From positions 1 through 5,082 of the forward strand of contig CAMPGP010000166.1 in the NCBI GenBank assembly GCA_946885545.1: 5,082 nt of DNA, in the 5' to 3' direction. The notes under the pieces are model-generated. The model saw nothing but the letters and a program-made list of their open reading frames with translations, did not search any database and was not told where the DNA came from. Each line of letters starts with the position of its first letter. Position 1 is the stretch's first letter. A program made the position numbers and the translations under genes. This stretch comes from an uncultured Altererythrobacter sp. (GTDB lineage Bacteria > Pseudomonadota > Alphaproteobacteria > Sphingomonadales > Sphingomonadaceae). Below are positions 376-4,578 of the stretch, in pieces.

Positions 376-782
376 TTCATCCTCATCGTTTCGAGCATCA
401 GTTGCTTGGCGGTGGAGAGCGCCTCGACCATGTTCTGGTATTGGCGCGACGCTTCGAGCATCTCGACCATCTCGGCGTTCTCATCGACCGGGCTGGCCCA
501 GACGTAGCCTTCGGCGTCCGCGAGCGGGTGTCCCGGCTCGTGGCGGCGGACCGGTGCGACATCGGCGCGCTGGACCTCGCTGACGTTGACCGTGCTCATG
601 CCGGTCGCTGCGTCGAGCTGTTCTGCGAAGACCGCGCGCAGCGGGCGATAGGCTTCCTCCTCGCTCGCTGCGACGCTGCCGGCGTTCGCGAGGTTGGAGG
701 CCGCCGCGTTCATCCGCACCAGCTGGGCGGACATGGCGCGCTGGCCGAGATCGAACAGGGTCATCGGGTTCGACATCGTCAC
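372..782 (-). CDS. flgC: Flagellar basal-body rod protein FlgC
   Basis: FlgC is a proximal rod subunit that crosses the periplasm between the MS ring and the distal rod. The 136-residue product has the N-terminal axial signature (AMSAQLVRMNAAASNLANAG, about residues 17-36), and a C-terminal helix with EMVEMLEASRQYQNMVEA and then STAKQLMLETM, the standard FlgC ending (EMvxMIEAsRxYxaNvEaxxtaKxlmlxtL). The middle is short but contains the family's YRPLRAVF strand. The start given is the GTG at 780-782, which overlaps the flgB stop as GTGA. An in-frame ATG at 774-776, giving MSNPMTLF, is an equally plausible start; AAGGG at about 787-791 could serve either one. The stop overlaps flgD by four bases. 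Confidence 0.93.
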   Translation of the reverse strand: MTMSNPMTLFDLGQRAMSAQLVRMNAAASNLANAGSVAASEEEAYRPLRAVFAEQLDAATGMSTVNVSEVQRADVAPVRRHEPGHPLADAEGYVWASPVDENAEMVEMLEASRQYQNMVEALSTAKQLMLETMRMK

Positions 783-1126
783 TCGCCCTTGATCGCGCGC
801 GTGAGGGTCTCGACCCGTCCGCGAAGGAACCCGAGGGTGGCGGTGTAGGCGACGGCGTTCTCGGCGAATTCCGCCTGTTCGGTCGCCATTTCGACCGTGT
901 TGCCGTCGAGGCTGGGCATCACCGGCACACGATAGCGCGTGGCCGAGCCTATGGCCTGTTCGCCTTCCGCGCCGCCCATGCGGGCCTCGAGCGCGGCGGC
1001 GAAGTCGATATCGCGCGCCTTGTATCCCGGTGTCGCCGCGTTGGCGATGTTCGATCCGAGCATGCCCATGCGCTGCGACCTGATCTCAAGCGCCGCGCCG
1101 TGAATGCCGAAAAGGCCGTTGCTCAT
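779..1126 (-). CDS. flgB: Flagellar basal-body rod protein FlgB
   Basis: FlgB is the most membrane-proximal rod subunit, exported without a Sec signal. The 115-residue product begins MSNGLFGIHGAALEIRSQRM and has the rod signature GSNIANAATPGYKARDIDFA at about residues 24-43 (family pattern NIANxxTPGYKArdvDF). The C-terminal portion is the expected amphipathic helix. It is slightly shorter than the roughly 130-140 residues of enteric FlgB. The start is supported by AGGAG at 1133-1137, seven to eleven bases upstream of the ATG. It is the first gene of the leftward flgB-flgC-flgD-flgE operon and lies downstream of a perfect sigma-54 promoter at 1157-1172. Confidence 0.95.
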   Translation of the reverse strand: MSNGLFGIHGAALEIRSQRMGMLGSNIANAATPGYKARDIDFAAALEARMGGAEGEQAIGSATRYRVPVMPSLDGNTVEMATEQAEFAENAVAYTATLGFLRGRVETLTRAIKGE

Positions 1127-1156: not shown

Positions 1157-1172
1157 AGCAAAGACCGTGCCA
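1157..1172 (-). promoter_or_regulatory. Sigma-54 promoter for flgBCDE
   Basis: On the minus strand this reads TGGCACGGTCTTTGCT, an exact match to the sigma-54 consensus TGGCAC-N5-TTGCW, with the required ten bases between the -24 GG and the -12 GC. The predicted transcription start is about position 1146, giving a leader of about 20 bases before the flgB ATG at 1126. A pair of dyads at 1218-1253 is centred about 80 and 100 bases upstream of that start, the usual distance for a sigma-54 activator. Confidence 0.92.
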
Positions 1173-1217: not shown

Positions 1218-1253
1218 CGGCAAGCCGTTGCCGAAAGCGGCAAATGTCGGCCG
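1218..1253. promoter_or_regulatory. Pair of enhancer-like dyads in the divergent flgB / motA-like control region
   Basis: The first copy (1218-1233) is CGGCAAGCCGTTGCCG, a perfect six-base dyad with a four-base spacer. The second (1238-1253) is CGGCAAATGTCGGCCG, with an intact left arm and a degenerate right arm, exactly 20 bases further on (about two helical turns). A further isolated TTGCCG half-site is at 1193-1198. Location upstream of the sigma-54 promoter at 1157-1172 suggests binding of a FlbD/FleQ-type bacterial enhancer-binding protein. The shape resembles the ftr elements of Caulobacter as I recall them; the identity of the binding protein is inference. Confidence 0.6.
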
Positions 1254-1274
1254 GAGGCTAAATCGCGCGCCTCC
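1253..1274. repeat. Inverted repeat in the leader of the motA-like gene
   Basis: GGAGGC at 1253-1258 is repeated in inverse as GCCTCC at 1269-1274, separated by ten bases. It lies about 20 bases before the ribosome site of the motA-like gene. It may form a small hairpin in that mRNA, or be chance in GC-rich DNA. No T run follows, so it is not a terminator. Confidence 0.3.
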
Positions 1275-1292
1275 AGGGGCGTTCTTCGATGC

Positions 1293-1298
1293 AAGGAG
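1293..1298 (+). promoter_or_regulatory. Ribosome binding site that fixes the motA-like start at GTG 1305
   Basis: AAGGAG lies six bases before a GTG at 1305-1307 but 15 bases before the next in-frame ATG at 1314-1316. The spacing favours the GTG. An in-frame ATG far upstream at 1104 would extend the frame across the flgB start and the divergent promoter, and is not credible. Confidence 0.75.
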
Positions 1299-1304
1299 AT
1301 CCAC

Positions 1305-1958
1305 GTGGACATCATGCAATTGCTCGATCCCGTCGCGGCGACGATCGTGTTTCTGGGCACGTTCGCCGCCACGCTGCTGCGGTGCGGCTGGCGCGACGCG
1401 CGGACCGCGCTGCTGACGCTTGCCCAGCTTCCCAGCAAGCCGTTCGACAGCAAGCGCGTGCGCGCCGAGCTCGCCGCTCAGGTGCGCGAGATCGGGCGTG
1501 ACGGCATCCTTCGCGCCGAACCGCACAGCTTCGGCGATGGGGAATTCGACGACCTGACTGGCGCACTCATCCGCCACCGCTCGATCAAGGCTCTCTACGA
1601 CGAGCACGCCCGTCATCGCGCTCGCCGTCAGGCGACCGCCGACACCGCCGCACGCGTGCTGGCCGAAGCCGCGGAGCTCGCCCCCGTCCTTGGGCTTGCC
1701 GGGACGCTGGTCGCATTGGGCGGCTTTTCGGCCGCGGCCGACGGCGACTACGCGCGCTCGATCGGAACCGCAGTGATCACCACGCTCTATGGCCTGGTGC
1801 TCGCGAATTTCGTCTTCAGCCCCCTTGCCAGCGCGATCGCACGGCGCGCGCGCGCCGAGGAGCGCGACCGGCAGGATTTGATGGTGTGGCTGGCTTCGGC
1901 GGTCGAACGCTCGATCCCCGCGCAGCGCAGCGGCACCGACGAAAAGGCCGCCGCATGA
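1305..1958 (+). CDS. MotA/PomA-like (MotA/TolQ/ExbB family) proton-channel protein, three-helix form
   Basis: The 217-residue product belongs to the stator/energiser channel family that couples ion flow to flagellar rotation (MotA, PomA) or outer-membrane work (ExbB, TolQ). Three hydrophobic segments are visible, at about residues 8-26, 124-142 and 152-176. LAPVLGLAGTLVAL (with Pro127) and AVITTLYGLVLANFVFSPLA (with Pro173) match PomA/MotA TM3 and TM4, including the prolines equivalent to MotA P173 and P222 by recalled alignment. The N-terminal segment aligns with MotA TM2, so MotA TM1 appears to be missing, leaving an ExbB-like topology. MotA proteins are usually 250-290 residues. The central part (about 30-120) is a charged cytoplasmic loop. 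The stop overlaps the next start as ATGA, so it is translationally coupled to a MotB/ExbD-like partner. The flagellar setting favours a stator role, but an ExbB-type role cannot be excluded. Confidence 0.8.
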   Translation: MDIMQLLDPVAATIVFLGTFAATLLRCGWRDARTALLTLAQLPSKPFDSKRVRAELAAQVREIGRDGILRAEPHSFGDGEFDDLTGALIRHRSIKALYDEHARHRARRQATADTAARVLAEAAELAPVLGLAGTLVALGGFSAAADGDYARSIGTAVITTLYGLVLANFVFSPLASAIARRARAEERDRQDLMVWLASAVERSIPAQRSGTDEKAAA

Positions 1959-2437
1959 TCCTCTCTTCGGCCCGCATCGGTTGGCAGACCACCCTCGCCG
2001 ATCTCGCGCTGATCCTCTTCATGGTTACCGCGGCGGCGATGGCCGACCGACCCGATCGCGCCGAGCACGCGCCCCCCGCGGCCGTCAACATCCCGCAAAG
2101 CGGCGAACCGCTTGCCATCTATCGCCCCGCACCGGACGCCCCGCCGCTGCGCGACTGGCTCGCGGGTCAGGCGCGCGATGAACGCCAGCACCTGACGATC
2201 ATCTCGCGCTATCCGCGAGGGATGGCCGACGACGCCGCCGCCGGCGCGCTGGCGCTGGCGACCGACGCGACCGCTGCCGGGCATCCGCCCCGGATCGTGG
2301 TCGAACCCGGTCAGGCCGCGGACCTCGTCGCCGTGCTCGATTTCGACGGCAGGCAATCTGGCACGCCGATTGCAGATACCCGCGTAGCAACCAGCAACAC
2401 CAAGCGGGCGGCAGAAGCCGTTCCGAACGAAAGGTGA
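1955..2437 (+). CDS. Small MotB/ExbD-like stator partner with a degenerate periplasmic domain
   Basis: This 160-residue protein has a short cytoplasmic N-terminus and one membrane helix (about residues 12-30). The motif GWQTTLADLALILFMVTAAA places Asp16 where MotB, PomB and ExbD carry the proton-binding aspartate. About 130 periplasmic residues follow. Residues 79-129 suggest a strand-helix-strand unit (HLTIISRY, an Ala-rich helix, RIVVEPG) that loosely recalls an OmpA-like fold. However, I see no NxxLSxxRA peptidoglycan-binding motif, and the protein is about half the length of MotB. The tail after about residue 131 is polar and probably disordered. The ATG at 1955 overlaps the upstream stop, with AAAAGG at 1942-1947 as ribosome site. 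The end overlaps a potential GTG of flgA as GTGA. An embedded sigma-54 promoter for flgA lies in its last 80 bases. It could be an ExbD/TolR-type subunit instead. The pairing is sure; the function is inferred. Confidence 0.72.
   Translation: MILSSARIGWQTTLADLALILFMVTAAAMADRPDRAEHAPPAAVNIPQSGEPLAIYRPAPDAPPLRDWLAGQARDERQHLTIISRYPRGMADDAAAGALALATDATAAGHPPRIVVEPGQAADLVAVLDFDGRQSGTPIADTRVATSNTKRAAEAVPNER
2359..2374 (+). promoter_or_regulatory. Sigma-54 promoter for flgA-flgM-flgN, inside the motB-like gene
   Basis: TGGCACGCCGATTGCA matches TGGCAC-N5-TTGCW exactly, with ten bases between GG and GC. The predicted start is near 2385, 58 bases before the flgA ATG at 2443. Because it sits inside the coding region of the preceding gene, flgAMN can be transcribed independently of the motA/motB-like pair. 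A half-dyad, CGGCAG, lies just upstream at 2347-2352. Confidence 0.85.
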
Positions 2438-2442
2438 TCCAC

Positions 2443-2946
2443 ATGCGTAGCATCCAAGCAGCGATAGCCGCAGGCGCGCTGAGCGCCGCCCTGCCCGCCC
2501 TGGCGGCAGGATTCCAGGACCACGCCGCGATCGATCGCGAAGTGGCGCAGTTCACCGGCATGCCGCTCGGCGCCCAGGGCGGCGCGCGCCTGCCGGTCGA
2601 CCGGCGCCTGAAGCTTTCGCAGTGCCCTGCCCCGCTCTCGCTCGAATGGTACGGCAATGCCAACCAGACCGTGCTCGTGCGGTGCCCGATCGCGGGCGGA
2701 TGGCGACTGTTCGTTCCCGTCGAAGGTGGCGGCACGATGGGCGCCAAGGCCCAGCCGGTAGTCGCGCGCGGGGAAACAGTCTCGATCGCGATCGAGGGAA
2801 AGGGGTTCTCGATCTCGCGCCAGGGCGAGGCGCTGGACGCGGGCGCGATCGGCGAATGGATCAGGGTTCGCCCCGCCGGTGCTGGCCGCGATCCGATCCG
2901 TGCCCGCATCACGCATCCCGGCAAAGTCGGCATAGGCTTGCCGTAA
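2443..2946 (+). CDS. flgA: Flagella basal-body P-ring assembly chaperone FlgA
   Basis: FlgA is a periplasmic chaperone needed for polymerisation of FlgI into the P ring. The 167-residue precursor begins with a Sec signal peptide (MRSIQAAIAAGALSAALPAL, cleavage likely near the following AAG). Residues about 104-165 form the conserved SAF-like C-terminal domain, with PVVARGETVSI, FSISRQGEALDAGAIGEWIR and a final G-KVGIGLP strand. Cys61 and Cys81 flank the region before it and could form a disulphide. At 167 residues it is shorter than enteric FlgA (about 219). The ATG at 2443 is chosen over a GTG at 2434 because AAGG at 2431-2434 is correctly spaced only for the ATG and because it gives a clean signal peptide. 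Its last codons include the rare ATA and TTG, which fall in a regulatory dyad. Confidence 0.93.
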   Translation: MRSIQAAIAAGALSAALPALAAGFQDHAAIDREVAQFTGMPLGAQGGARLPVDRRLKLSQCPAPLSLEWYGNANQTVLVRCPIAGGWRLFVPVEGGGTMGAKAQPVVARGETVSIAIEGKGFSISRQGEALDAGAIGEWIRVRPAGAGRDPIRARITHPGKVGIGLP

Positions 2947-2964
2947 GGCGGCAAAATCTTGCGG
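2928..2964. promoter_or_regulatory. Pair of enhancer-like dyads at the flgA/flgM junction
   Basis: Two 16-base dyads occur exactly 21 bases apart: CGGCATAGGCTTGCCG at 2928-2943 and CGGCAAAATCTTGCGG at 2949-2964, each one base from CGGCAA-N4-TTGCCG. An extra CGGCAA half-site is at 2919-2924. The first lies in the last codons of flgA and the second is just upstream of flgM. No correctly spaced sigma-54 element follows them. They could act on the flgA promoter from downstream, repress, or regulate flgM. That role is inference. Confidence 0.55.
2938..2954 (+). repeat. Hairpin spanning the flgA stop codon
   Basis: TTGCCG (2938-2943) and CGGCAA (2949-2954) are perfect inverse complements around a five-base loop, TAAGG, which contains the flgA stop codon TAA (2944-2946). 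It is formed by the inner arms of the two neighbouring dyads. No run of T follows (AATCTTGC), so it is not a convincing terminator. It could reduce transcript passage or protect the 3' end. Confidence 0.3.
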
Positions 2965-3026
2965 GGCCCCTTAATTTCCCGCGTCACGCGCCGTCCTTGG
3001 TTCCGGTACACGAACGGAGCGAACCG

Positions 3027-3311
3027 ATGGACCGGATCGAGATGCAGGGACCGAACGGGATCCTCGCGCGCCTCAGGGCGCGGGGCTCGGCACCCGTCAC
3101 CCGCGCGGAACCCGCGCGGCCGACCGGCTCCGAACCCGATCCCGCCGTCGCGCTCGCCGCGATCGGGCTGGCAGGCTCAGACGCTCCGGTCGATAGTGGC
3201 CGGGTGAAGGAAATTCGCGAAGCGATCGAGAAGGGCCGCTACCCGCTCGATCCCGGCAGGACCGCGGACGCGATCATTGCCGCAGGCTTCATGTTGAGGA
3301 ACGAGCAATGA
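3027..3311 (+). CDS. flgM: Anti-sigma-28 factor FlgM
   Basis: FlgM binds and inhibits the flagellar sigma factor FliA (sigma-28) in the cytoplasm until hook completion, then is exported through the flagellum. The 94-residue product has an unstructured, Pro/Ala/Arg-rich first half, as is usual for FlgM. Its C-terminal sigma-binding region at about 56-90 reads DSGRVKEIREAIEKGRYPLD followed by PGRTADAIIAAGFML, matching the family pattern (D)xxRVxxIrxaIxxGxYxIDxxkiAdkli. GGAG at 3016-3019, seven bases before the ATG, fixes the start. The stop overlaps flgN as ATGA. The flgA-flgM-flgN order is a standard flagellar arrangement. The 80-base gap before it contains one of the dyads but no exact sigma-54 promoter, so transcription probably comes through flgA. 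Confidence 0.92.
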   Translation: MDRIEMQGPNGILARLRARGSAPVTRAEPARPTGSEPDPAVALAAIGLAGSDAPVDSGRVKEIREAIEKGRYPLDPGRTADAIIAAGFMLRNEQ

Positions 3312-3649
3312 CCGTGGACAGGCCCCTGCGCGATGCGCTCCGGCAAATGCTTGCCCTCCTCGAGAACGAGCGGCAGGCGCTTGCCGGTCTCGACCTCGAC
3401 AGCATCCTGAACTGCTCGGACAACAAGCTCGAGCTGTGCGAAACCATCGAGCGGCAGGCCAAGGGCCCTCTCGACGAGGAATGCAGCGGCCTGCTCGACG
3501 CGGTCGCGCGTCTGAACGAGATCAACCGCAAGATCCGCAACCTGATCGCCGCAAACGTAGAGGCGCGCCTCGGCTCGCTGACCGGGCGGATCAGCCTCTA
3601 CGGTGCGGGCCTCCCCTCGGTAGCGCGGGAAATGCCCTACCACGCCTGA
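3308..3649 (+). CDS. flgN: FlgN-type export chaperone for hook-filament junction proteins
   Basis: FlgN is a small helical cytoplasmic chaperone that binds the C-termini of FlgK and FlgL and brings them to the export gate. This 113-residue protein is helical throughout, with an N-terminal coiled-coil segment (LRQMLALLENERQALAGLDL, residues 11-30) resembling the LLxxExxALxxxDl opening of FlgN. A second long helix follows at about 55-85. Sequence similarity in this family is weak, so the call rests on helix pattern, length (family about 110-160) and position right after flgM. The ATG overlaps the flgM stop, with GAGGA at 3296-3300 seven bases upstream. Codons 12-16 and 22-26 form two copies of the regulatory dyad and contain the gene's only CTT codons. 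Confidence 0.85.
   Translation: MTVDRPLRDALRQMLALLENERQALAGLDLDSILNCSDNKLELCETIERQAKGPLDEECSGLLDAVARLNEINRKIRNLIAANVEARLGSLTGRISLYGAGLPSVAREMPYHA
3341..3386. promoter_or_regulatory. Pair of enhancer-like dyads inside flgN
   Basis: CGGCAAATGCTTGCCC (3341-3356) and CGGCAGGCGCTTGCCG (3371-3386) each differ by one base from CGGCAA-N4-TTGCCG and lie 30 bases apart. They are centred about 350 and 320 bases upstream of the predicted start of the next sigma-54 promoter (3675-3690). That is far, but within looping range for such activators. They encode RQMLA and RQALA in flgN, so a protein-level repeat could explain part of the similarity. Confidence 0.45.
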
Positions 3650-3674: not shown

Positions 3675-3690
3675 TGGCACACCTCTTGCT
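3675..3690 (+). promoter_or_regulatory. Sigma-54 promoter for the transglycosylase-flhA operon
   Basis: TGGCACACCTCTTGCT is an exact match to TGGCAC-N5-TTGCW with the correct ten-base GG-to-GC spacing. It lies in the 77-base gap after flgN. The predicted start is near 3701, leaving a 26-base leader before the TTG start at 3727. Confidence 0.92.
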
Positions 3691-3726: not shown

Positions 3727-4578
3727 TTGTCAGGCGTCACACCAGTCCAGCGCCCAGCGCAGACCGAGAGCGTGCAGGCTTCGATTGCCCGCGCCTCGAC
3801 CGCGACCGGGGTCGATTTCGACTACCTGCTCGCGCAGGCCAAGATCGAATCCGGCCTCGACGCCGACGCGAAGGCGCGCACGTCCAGCGCATCCGGCCTC
3901 TACCAGTTCATCTCTTCCACCTGGCTTGAGACGCTCGATCGGCACGGCAAGACGCACGGGCTCGACTGGGCCGAGGCTGCGATTACCCGTCAGGGCGGCC
4001 GCGCCACCGTCGGCGACGCAGGTATGCGCTCACAGATCATGGCGCTGCGCTTCGACCCGAACGTCTCATCGCTAATGGCCGCCGAACTCGCACGCGACAA
4101 CGCGGGCGAGCTGCGCGGCTTTCTCGGCCGCGAACCCGATCATGCCGAACTATACCTCGCCCACTTCCTCGGCGCAGGCGGCGCGAAGAGCTTTCTCGGC
4201 GCGCTGAACGACAATCCGCTGTCTCCCGCCGCGGCGCTGTTTCCCAAGCCCGCGTCGGCCAATCCCTCGATCTTCTACCAGGGTGGGCGCTCGCGCTCGG
4301 TCGGCGAGGTCATGGATCTGATGCGCACCAAGGTCGAAGGCGCCAAGGAAGGTGGCGGGTTCGTCGCTCCGCCGGGCGGCGCATACATGCCCGCCGCCCC
4401 TGCGGCGGCATTCGGCCATGCACGGCGCACCTTCGCCGTGACCGAGACCGAAGCACCCCGCCGCCCCTCGATGGCGGAAACGTTGCAGGCCACGTTCGGC
4501 AGCTCCGGCGGGACCGGCGGGAACGCCTCGCGTCATATCGGTGAAGCCTACGGCAAGTTCAGGGCGTTCGGCCTGTGA
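3727..4578 (+). CDS. Flagellar-cluster lytic transglycosylase (SLT domain), no Sec signal
   Basis: The protein cleaves the glycan strands of peptidoglycan; in this setting the likely task is to open a gap for the rod. Of 283 residues, about 15-160 form a GH23-type SLT domain. Glu41 in LLAQAKIESGLDADAKA is the expected catalytic acid, followed by SSASGLYQFISSTW (53-66) and the substrate-groove segment YLAHFLGAGGAKSFL (143-157). The C-terminal 100 residues are Gly/Pro/Ala-rich and probably disordered. There is no hydrophobic N-terminal signal peptide, unlike the flagellar transglycosylase SltF of Rhodobacter as I recall it, so export through the flagellar apparatus is possible. There is also no FlgJ-type rod-binding domain ahead of it. 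The start is TTG, preceded by a sigma-54 promoter. The stop overlaps flhA as GTGA. A specific gene symbol is not justified. Confidence 0.85.
   Translation: MSGVTPVQRPAQTESVQASIARASTATGVDFDYLLAQAKIESGLDADAKARTSSASGLYQFISSTWLETLDRHGKTHGLDWAEAAITRQGGRATVGDAGMRSQIMALRFDPNVSSLMAAELARDNAGELRGFLGREPDHAELYLAHFLGAGGAKSFLGALNDNPLSPAAALFPKPASANPSIFYQGGRSRSVGEVMDLMRTKVEGAKEGGGFVAPPGGAYMPAAPAAAFGHARRTFAVTETEAPRRPSMAETLQATFGSSGGTGGNASRHIGEAYGKFRAFGL

Follow-up and report, generated by a model that had tools for sequence, protein, structure and literature searches.

Flagellar sigma-54 activators include FlrC of Vibrio and its counterpart in Pseudomonas, FleR, as well as FlbD of Caulobacter, whose ftr elements have a GGCA...TGCC shape. 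Enhancers of such activators are already known. A published account of Vibrio counts rod and hook genes and the fliK operon among the sigma-54-dependent class III genes, and it describes the FlrC sites as usually lying downstream of the start and acting as true enhancers (PMC6504787). In Caulobacter, FlbD binds to ftr sites and works both as an activator and as a repressor (PMC3930126), and the alphaproteobacterium Rhodobacter sphaeroides has a Fla1 system with sigma-54, FliA and FlgM in which the activator FleT is encoded together with fliEFGHIJ (PMC7277832). Here we describe a 16-base dyad, CGGCAA-N4-TTGCCG, that occurs in six copies in 5,082 nucleotides from an uncultured Altererythrobacter sp. 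(assembly GCA_946885545.1, contig CAMPGP010000166.1). This whole stretch, hereafter the window, is a Pelagerythrobacter-like flagellar cluster. Comparison of genomes makes it very probable that the dyads are enhancer sites, so far predicted ones, of a flagellar sigma-54 activator in sphingomonad-type bacteria.

All six copies listed in a preliminary description of the window were located, with mismatches scored against the consensus. Dyad 1a (1218..1233) is perfect and lies upstream of the flgB sigma-54 promoter, and its partner 20 bp on, dyad 1b (1238..1253), is degenerate with two mismatches. The other four copies have one mismatch each: dyad 2a (2928..2943) overlaps the last codons of flgA, dyad 2b (2949..2964) lies in the flgA-flgM gap, and dyads 3a (3341..3356) and 3b (3371..3386) are both within the flgN coding sequence. 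The preliminary description had mentioned neither the overlap with the end of flgA nor the position of the third pair wholly inside flgN, nor the sigma-28-like boxes beside two of the three pairs. Its rough estimate that copies this good are rare by chance was borne out. Five dyads with at most one mismatch were observed against a mean of 0.04 expected, and 14 with at most three mismatches against a mean of 4.67; none of 200 shuffles reached 5 or 14, respectively. The spacings within pairs were 20, 21 and 30 bp as described. The idea that each pair lies on nearly the same face of the DNA suits the spacings of 20 and 21 bp and fits loosely at 30 bp (2.86 turns).

The arrangement was compared with that at 33 relative loci (L001-L033), of which L029-L033 were last by E-value and L033 is a 6-kb contig. 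All of the sphingomonad-type loci (L001-L028) carry a dyad with at most one mismatch, and none was found at that threshold in the five more distant loci (L029-L033). When the spacing in CGGCA-Nk-TGCCG was varied from k = 2 to 11 in the window and L001-L026, k = 6 gave a count of 98 and every other value 12 or fewer. In 28/28 of L001-L028, the flgB side had a dyad of no more than one mismatch near a sigma-54 promoter that also had no more than one, and most of these loci, L023 and L027 excepted, have a degenerate copy resembling dyad 1b 20-21 bp on. A dyad with at most one mismatch was near the flgA stop in 22 of the 28 loci. The two flgN copies, in frame and with a spacing of exactly 30 bp, had at most one mismatch each at 21 loci and at most two each at 26, the first copy being lost in L010 and both in L028. 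The dyads are thus conserved at these positions in relatives. Three genomes (G001, G002 and G006) have a further perfect dyad at 228-287 bp on the downstream side of a conserved sigma-54-like site, TGGCACNCNTCTTGAA, that has one mismatch; in G001 this dyad falls within a frame that gave no match in the Pfam scan and is called fliK-like from its position alone.

The dyad was also locked in position relative to the flgB promoter. A composite of the exact sigma-54 promoter pattern (TGGCACN5TTGCW) followed by an exact CGGCAN6TGCCG was searched for in 396 genomes of the order. It was found in 41 genomes with a gap of 15-45 and in 83 with a gap of 46-76, together 118 genomes and 122 places, and the reversed-pattern control gave 0/396 in both gap searches. 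The gene directly downstream, in the correct orientation, was flgB in 19 of the 20 composite loci inspected, with gene type judged by eye. Composite match lengths span 46-107 bp only, and the longer-spaced loci L011, L012, L020 and L005 fall outside this range. The lengths form runs with means of 63.5, 74.2, 84.4, 95.6 and 105.8 bp, and only the lengths 79 and 92, each seen once, fall outside these runs. At a period of 10.5 bp the 122 distances had a resultant length of 0.83, and 0 of 20,000 random sets matched the occupied lengths at this period; this p-value is optimistic, since lengths close to each other are interdependent and no phylogeny of the genomes entered the test. In a smaller test, which used 15 different distances taken from the window and L001-L028 and mixed several promoters per locus, the signal was weak: the resultant was 0.36 at 10.5 and, over periods of 8-14, was highest at 11.25 (0.49). 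The composite lengths of the larger search fall in runs one helical turn from each other, and the stretches between these runs are empty, which points to a face-of-helix constraint at flgB. The helix-face-dependent position relative to a sigma-54 promoter that is expected of bacterial enhancers (upstream activating sequences, UAS) was therefore found here, by comparison between genomes.

Other arrangements of the composite were also seen. A second composite of opposite orientation was present in 2 of the 19 flgB loci; a sigma-54 and dyad composite of this kind, pointing away from flgB, is seen in L131 and L132. The exception among the 20 loci was L125 (G400:C1:1813800-1819900), where the composite (3042-3138) precedes a glycosyltransferase-like and then a nucleotidyltransferase-like gene, both assigned by eye; flagellin glycosylation is possibly under the same activator there. 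In L005 (7299-7356), three tandem sigma-54 promoter-like sites in 21-bp steps, two of them with one mismatch, lie upstream of flgB.

These data bear on whether the dyads act in RNA, as hairpins or terminators, or are dispersed palindromic repeats. A 6-bp stem with a 4-nt loop is possible for each dyad, and a variant often seen at dyad 3b (CGGCAG...TTGCCG) would keep its stem in RNA through a G-U pair. However, no T run follows the copies in the window, other variants break the pairing (T-T at 2928 and C-C at 3341), and the flgB copy is phased to its promoter from upstream DNA, all of which makes this explanation extremely unlikely. Just one to five perfect copies were present per genome in ten genomes, and the dyad is therefore no dispersed repeat.

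The two copies in flgN encode R-Q-M-L-A (first) and R-Q-A-L-A (second) in a block that is conserved at the protein level, and these copies could merely reflect protein conservation of a repeated R-Q-x-L-A. The choice of codons was therefore tested in 29 sequences (the window and L001-L028; L033 was dropped and L029-L032 gave no flgN match) against 13,461 codons from the transglycosylase and flhA genes. Arginine was encoded by CGG in 27/27 and 27/28 cases at the two copies (background 0.198), and leucine by CTT in 20/21 and 27/28 (background 0.071). None of the other arginine columns of flgN was mainly CGG, and CTT reached at most 8/29 at any other column, the codon right after the first copy. 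Where leucine in the first copy was replaced by valine (five sequences) or phenylalanine (two), the codon was GTT or TTT, which retains the TT and keeps the dyad. With uncommon codons nearly fixed at both copies, but not at other arginine and leucine columns, conservation of the protein alone is a very improbable account. Judged by this strong synonymous constraint, the DNA word in flgN is itself under selection.

A candidate for the protein that would bind the dyads is encoded by a sigma-54 activator gene inside the flagellar cluster in G001, G002, G006 and G008. In G001 the gene adjoins fliE, fliF and fliG and is the only Sigma54_activat gene in a 57-kb flagellar stretch. The AAA+ Sigma54_activat domain and, above cut-off, a Fis-type helix-turn-helix (HTH_8) were detected in 3/3 proteins scanned, and GAFTGA in 4/4; no receiver domain was matched by Pfam in the 3/3 proteins. 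The best solved-structure relative was FlrC (4qhs), first of 36 in both searches. By these features the activator is FlrC/FlbD-like, not FlbD proper.

The preliminary description had compared the dyads with the ftr elements to which FlbD binds in Caulobacter. FlbD (NF050807) was indeed the best NCBIfam model of the activator in the two proteins compared (335.3 and 339.5 bits), and FlbD itself acts from ftr sites in both directions, as cited above. Yet these scores are far under the curated cut-off of 750, and the alignments begin at model positions 110 and 104, so that the receiver part is unmatched; the helix-turn-helix region also differs. FliX was found in 0/8 sphingomonad genomes, with a positive Caulobacter control. 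Across 148 kb around flbD in nine FlbD genomes, no peak was seen at N6 (3 exact matches at N6, 0-5 elsewhere), in a test limited by 3/9 stretches that have no sigma-54 site at one mismatch or fewer. An FlbD/ftr identity of the dyads is thus quite unlikely, and this part of the earlier account was not supported.

Genomes with the composite usually had a homolog of the candidate activator. Forty composite-positive genomes, the first matches of each gap search, were compared with 40 negatives from four blocks. A homolog scoring at least 368 bits with a four-sequence profile was present in 38/40 positive vs. 3/40 negative genomes (Fisher p ~1e-16), and one of at least 500 bits in 30/40 vs. 2/40. 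Perfect sigma-54 sites were also concentrated in the flagellar cluster, which contained 3/6 of those in the whole genome of G001 and 3/4 in G006.

Genome-wide, tandem pairs of the motif were concentrated in the flagellar cluster. Ten genomes had pairs at 19 distinct places, and the coordinates assign 12 of these to flagellar regions: seven at flgB, three in flgN, one between flgA and flgM, and one in G004, assigned by its distance of about 19 kb from flgB only. In G001, 6 of 38 copies with at most one mismatch lie within a 34-kb flagellar stretch (expected 0.43, p ~6e-6), the interval having been chosen with the list in view. At a non-flagellar place, L069 (G001:C1:376716 and 376828), two dyads 112 bp from each other lie close to a der-like GTPase gene and a gene resembling those of small secreted proteins, and a dyad pair 124 bp apart was seen in G003 contig 11.

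Several results count against assigning the dyads to the cluster's sigma-54 activator. The single motif was only modestly above its reversed control: perfect copies numbered 35 vs. 19 in the ten genomes, and the copies with at most one mismatch in G001 numbered 38 vs. 28. Of the 19 tandem-pair places, 7 are not in the flagellar cluster, and the pair pattern in reversed form was matched 3 times. No dyad lies close to the flgA promoter. As to co-occurrence, the 368-bit cut-off was chosen once the scores had shown a gap reaching down to 341, and the 80 genomes were unmatched for kinship or flagella; the contrast may therefore be in part one of motile vs. non-motile genomes or of family vs. family. 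Two of the 40 positive genomes had no strong activator match, and in G302 and G120, also positives, the match was far from the composite site. The activator is known from the genomes of relatives only, not from the window's own. The proposal that the dyads are sites of the cluster's activator thus gains from the company of flagellar sigma-54 promoters, from conservation, from the locked position at flgB and from co-occurrence, and loses from the modest genome-wide excess of the single motif and from the unsupported FlbD/ftr identity.

If the dyads are enhancer sites, the activator would be the FlrC/FlbD-like AAA+ protein with GAFTGA and a Fis-type helix-turn-helix encoded in the flagellar cluster of relatives (by fliE-fliF in G001). 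Its dimers on tandem dyads would seed an AAA+ ring that loops to the sigma-54 polymerase and opens three promoters, each a perfect match in the window: that of flgBCD (1157..1172, minus strand), that of flgA-flgM-flgN (2359..2374, plus strand) and that of the transglycosylase gene and flhA (3675..3690, plus strand). The flgB promoter would be served from the upstream site, phased to the helix, and the transglycosylase-flhA promoter from a site about 300 bp upstream, inside flgN. For flgA the nearest site would be about 570 bp downstream; in relatives, the promoter before the fliK-like frame would likewise use its downstream site. We infer the identity of the binding protein, the looping and the promoter served by each pair, and assign the pairs that would serve flgA and flhA from position only.

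Neighbouring sigma-28-like promoters suggest a second role of the dyad pairs. In the window, the box CTAAAT-N-GGCGTTCT (1258..1285, plus strand), with a gap of 4 bp to dyad 1b, faces the motA-like gene, and the box TTAAT-N-GCCGTCCT of flgM (2971..2997, plus strand) starts 6 bp after dyad 2b. The relaxed box expressions were chosen after seeing the sequences, and the box counts are descriptive. Between flgA and flgM, TTAA-N15-GCCGTYCT was present in 20/29 sequences. When degenerate copies of up to five mismatches are counted, the end of a dyad copy lies 6-7 bp ahead of the box in 13 of these 20 sequences and 5-9 bp ahead of it in 17; in those 13 sequences the copy's offset from the flgA stop ranged from 2 to 25 bp. 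The box CT(A/G)A(A/T)-N-GCCGTTCT toward the motA-like gene was present in 24/29 sequences, 18 at an offset of 40-41 from the first dyad, with 4 bp as the commonest gap between the second copy and the box that follows it. Within L001-L028, 36/46 plus-strand boxes and 0/12 minus-strand boxes had a dyad with at most two mismatches within 60 bp upstream, many of the 46 being the sites that suggested the pattern. An exact dyad with a flgM-type box was found in 15 of the 396 genomes (control 0), with gaps of 7-8 bp in five and of 23-30 bp in the others, where the dyad is as a rule the first copy.

A box similar to that of flgM precedes flagellin in G001, G002 and G006 (flagellin confirmed for G002), a sigma-70-family gene lies beside flhA in G001, and the boxes resemble the FliA consensus; on this basis they are putative sigma-28 promoters. 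That flagellin promoters of this class also carry dyads was considered and rejected, as no dyad with at most one mismatch was found near flagellin in G001, G002 and G006. In G398 (contig 1, 1540851-1540986), the flgB sigma-54 composite overlaps an exact dyad with a sigma-28-like box, and one dyad seems common to two promoters facing apart.

Some other DNA-binding protein might use the dyads to control the sigma-28-like promoters, with the sigma-54 link incidental. The second copies are mostly 4-7 bp from such boxes, and the distance of dyad to box is mostly constant while that to the flgA stop varies. Against this stand the helical phasing to the sigma-54 promoter, the flgN copies, which are not beside a sigma-28-like box, and the co-occurrence with the activator gene, and we consider this alternative quite unlikely. 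If the sigma-54 activator is the binding protein, its pairs possibly double as operators of the flgM and motA-like sigma-28 promoters. A tentative extension, which we rate at somewhat under even chances, is a two-way switch in which the bound activator drives the phased flgB promoter and also acts as operator or co-activator of the two adjoining sigma-28 promoters. Such a switch would let a single protein couple the middle flagellar class to expression of an anti-sigma factor and a stator-like gene.

The gene content of the window is that of a flagellar cluster, and the closest of the 33 relatives is Pelagerythrobacter rhizovicinus (80% identity in the transglycosylase). On the minus strand are flgD (82-375; Pfam hook-cap family), flgC (372-782) and flgB (779..1126), the latter two being members of the Pfam rod family distinguished by their order. 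The plus strand begins with a MotA/ExbB-like gene (1305..1958; PF01618), followed by a 160-aa frame (1955-2437) that had no Pfam or NCBIfam match and that, judged by position, may encode a MotB-like partner. Then come flgA (2443..2946; PF13144), the anti-sigma-28 gene flgM (3027..3311; PF04316) and flgN (3308..3649), assigned from its position after flgM and a weak PF05130 match below cut-off. The last genes are a FlgJ-like transglycosylase (3727..4578; SLT just below cut-off) and flhA (from 4575; FHIPEP well above cut-off).

Among the top-ranked, mostly open-access matches in the literature on flagellar regulation, no description of this motif or of an enhancer for this alphaproteobacterial branch was found. 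The motif, its placement inside a coding sequence and beside sigma-28-like boxes, and the receiver-less activator appear to be new. They supply an operator that can be searched for and a candidate activator for one branch of alphaproteobacterial flagella, document helical phasing of an enhancer by comparison across 118 genomes, give an example of an enhancer pair conserved inside coding sequence, and make it possible to test directly if a sigma-54 activator has control of sigma-28 promoters as well.

Like FlbD of Caulobacter, the candidate is a flagellar sigma-54 activator with a Fis-type helix-turn-helix, but the receiver domain and FliX partner of FlbD were not found here, the helix-turn-helix region differs and the dyad is not enriched around flbD. 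FlbD and FliX are described for Sphingomonas sp. WG, whose clusters have no fliA (PMC8921679), so that there seems to be more than one type of flagellar regulation among sphingomonads. The location of the fleT gene in R. sphaeroides resembles that of the fliE-adjacent activator gene of G001, although the Fla1 system has two activators, FleQ and FleT, in a complex, as against the single activator gene in the G001 flagellar stretch. FlrC is the described activator whose solved structure is closest, but the receiver domain through which FlrC-type proteins are phosphorylated was not detected in the three proteins scanned, and FlrB-type phosphorylation is therefore not expected. The sites differ from those of FlrC and FleR as well, with one pair placed inside flgN and others set beside sigma-28-like boxes.

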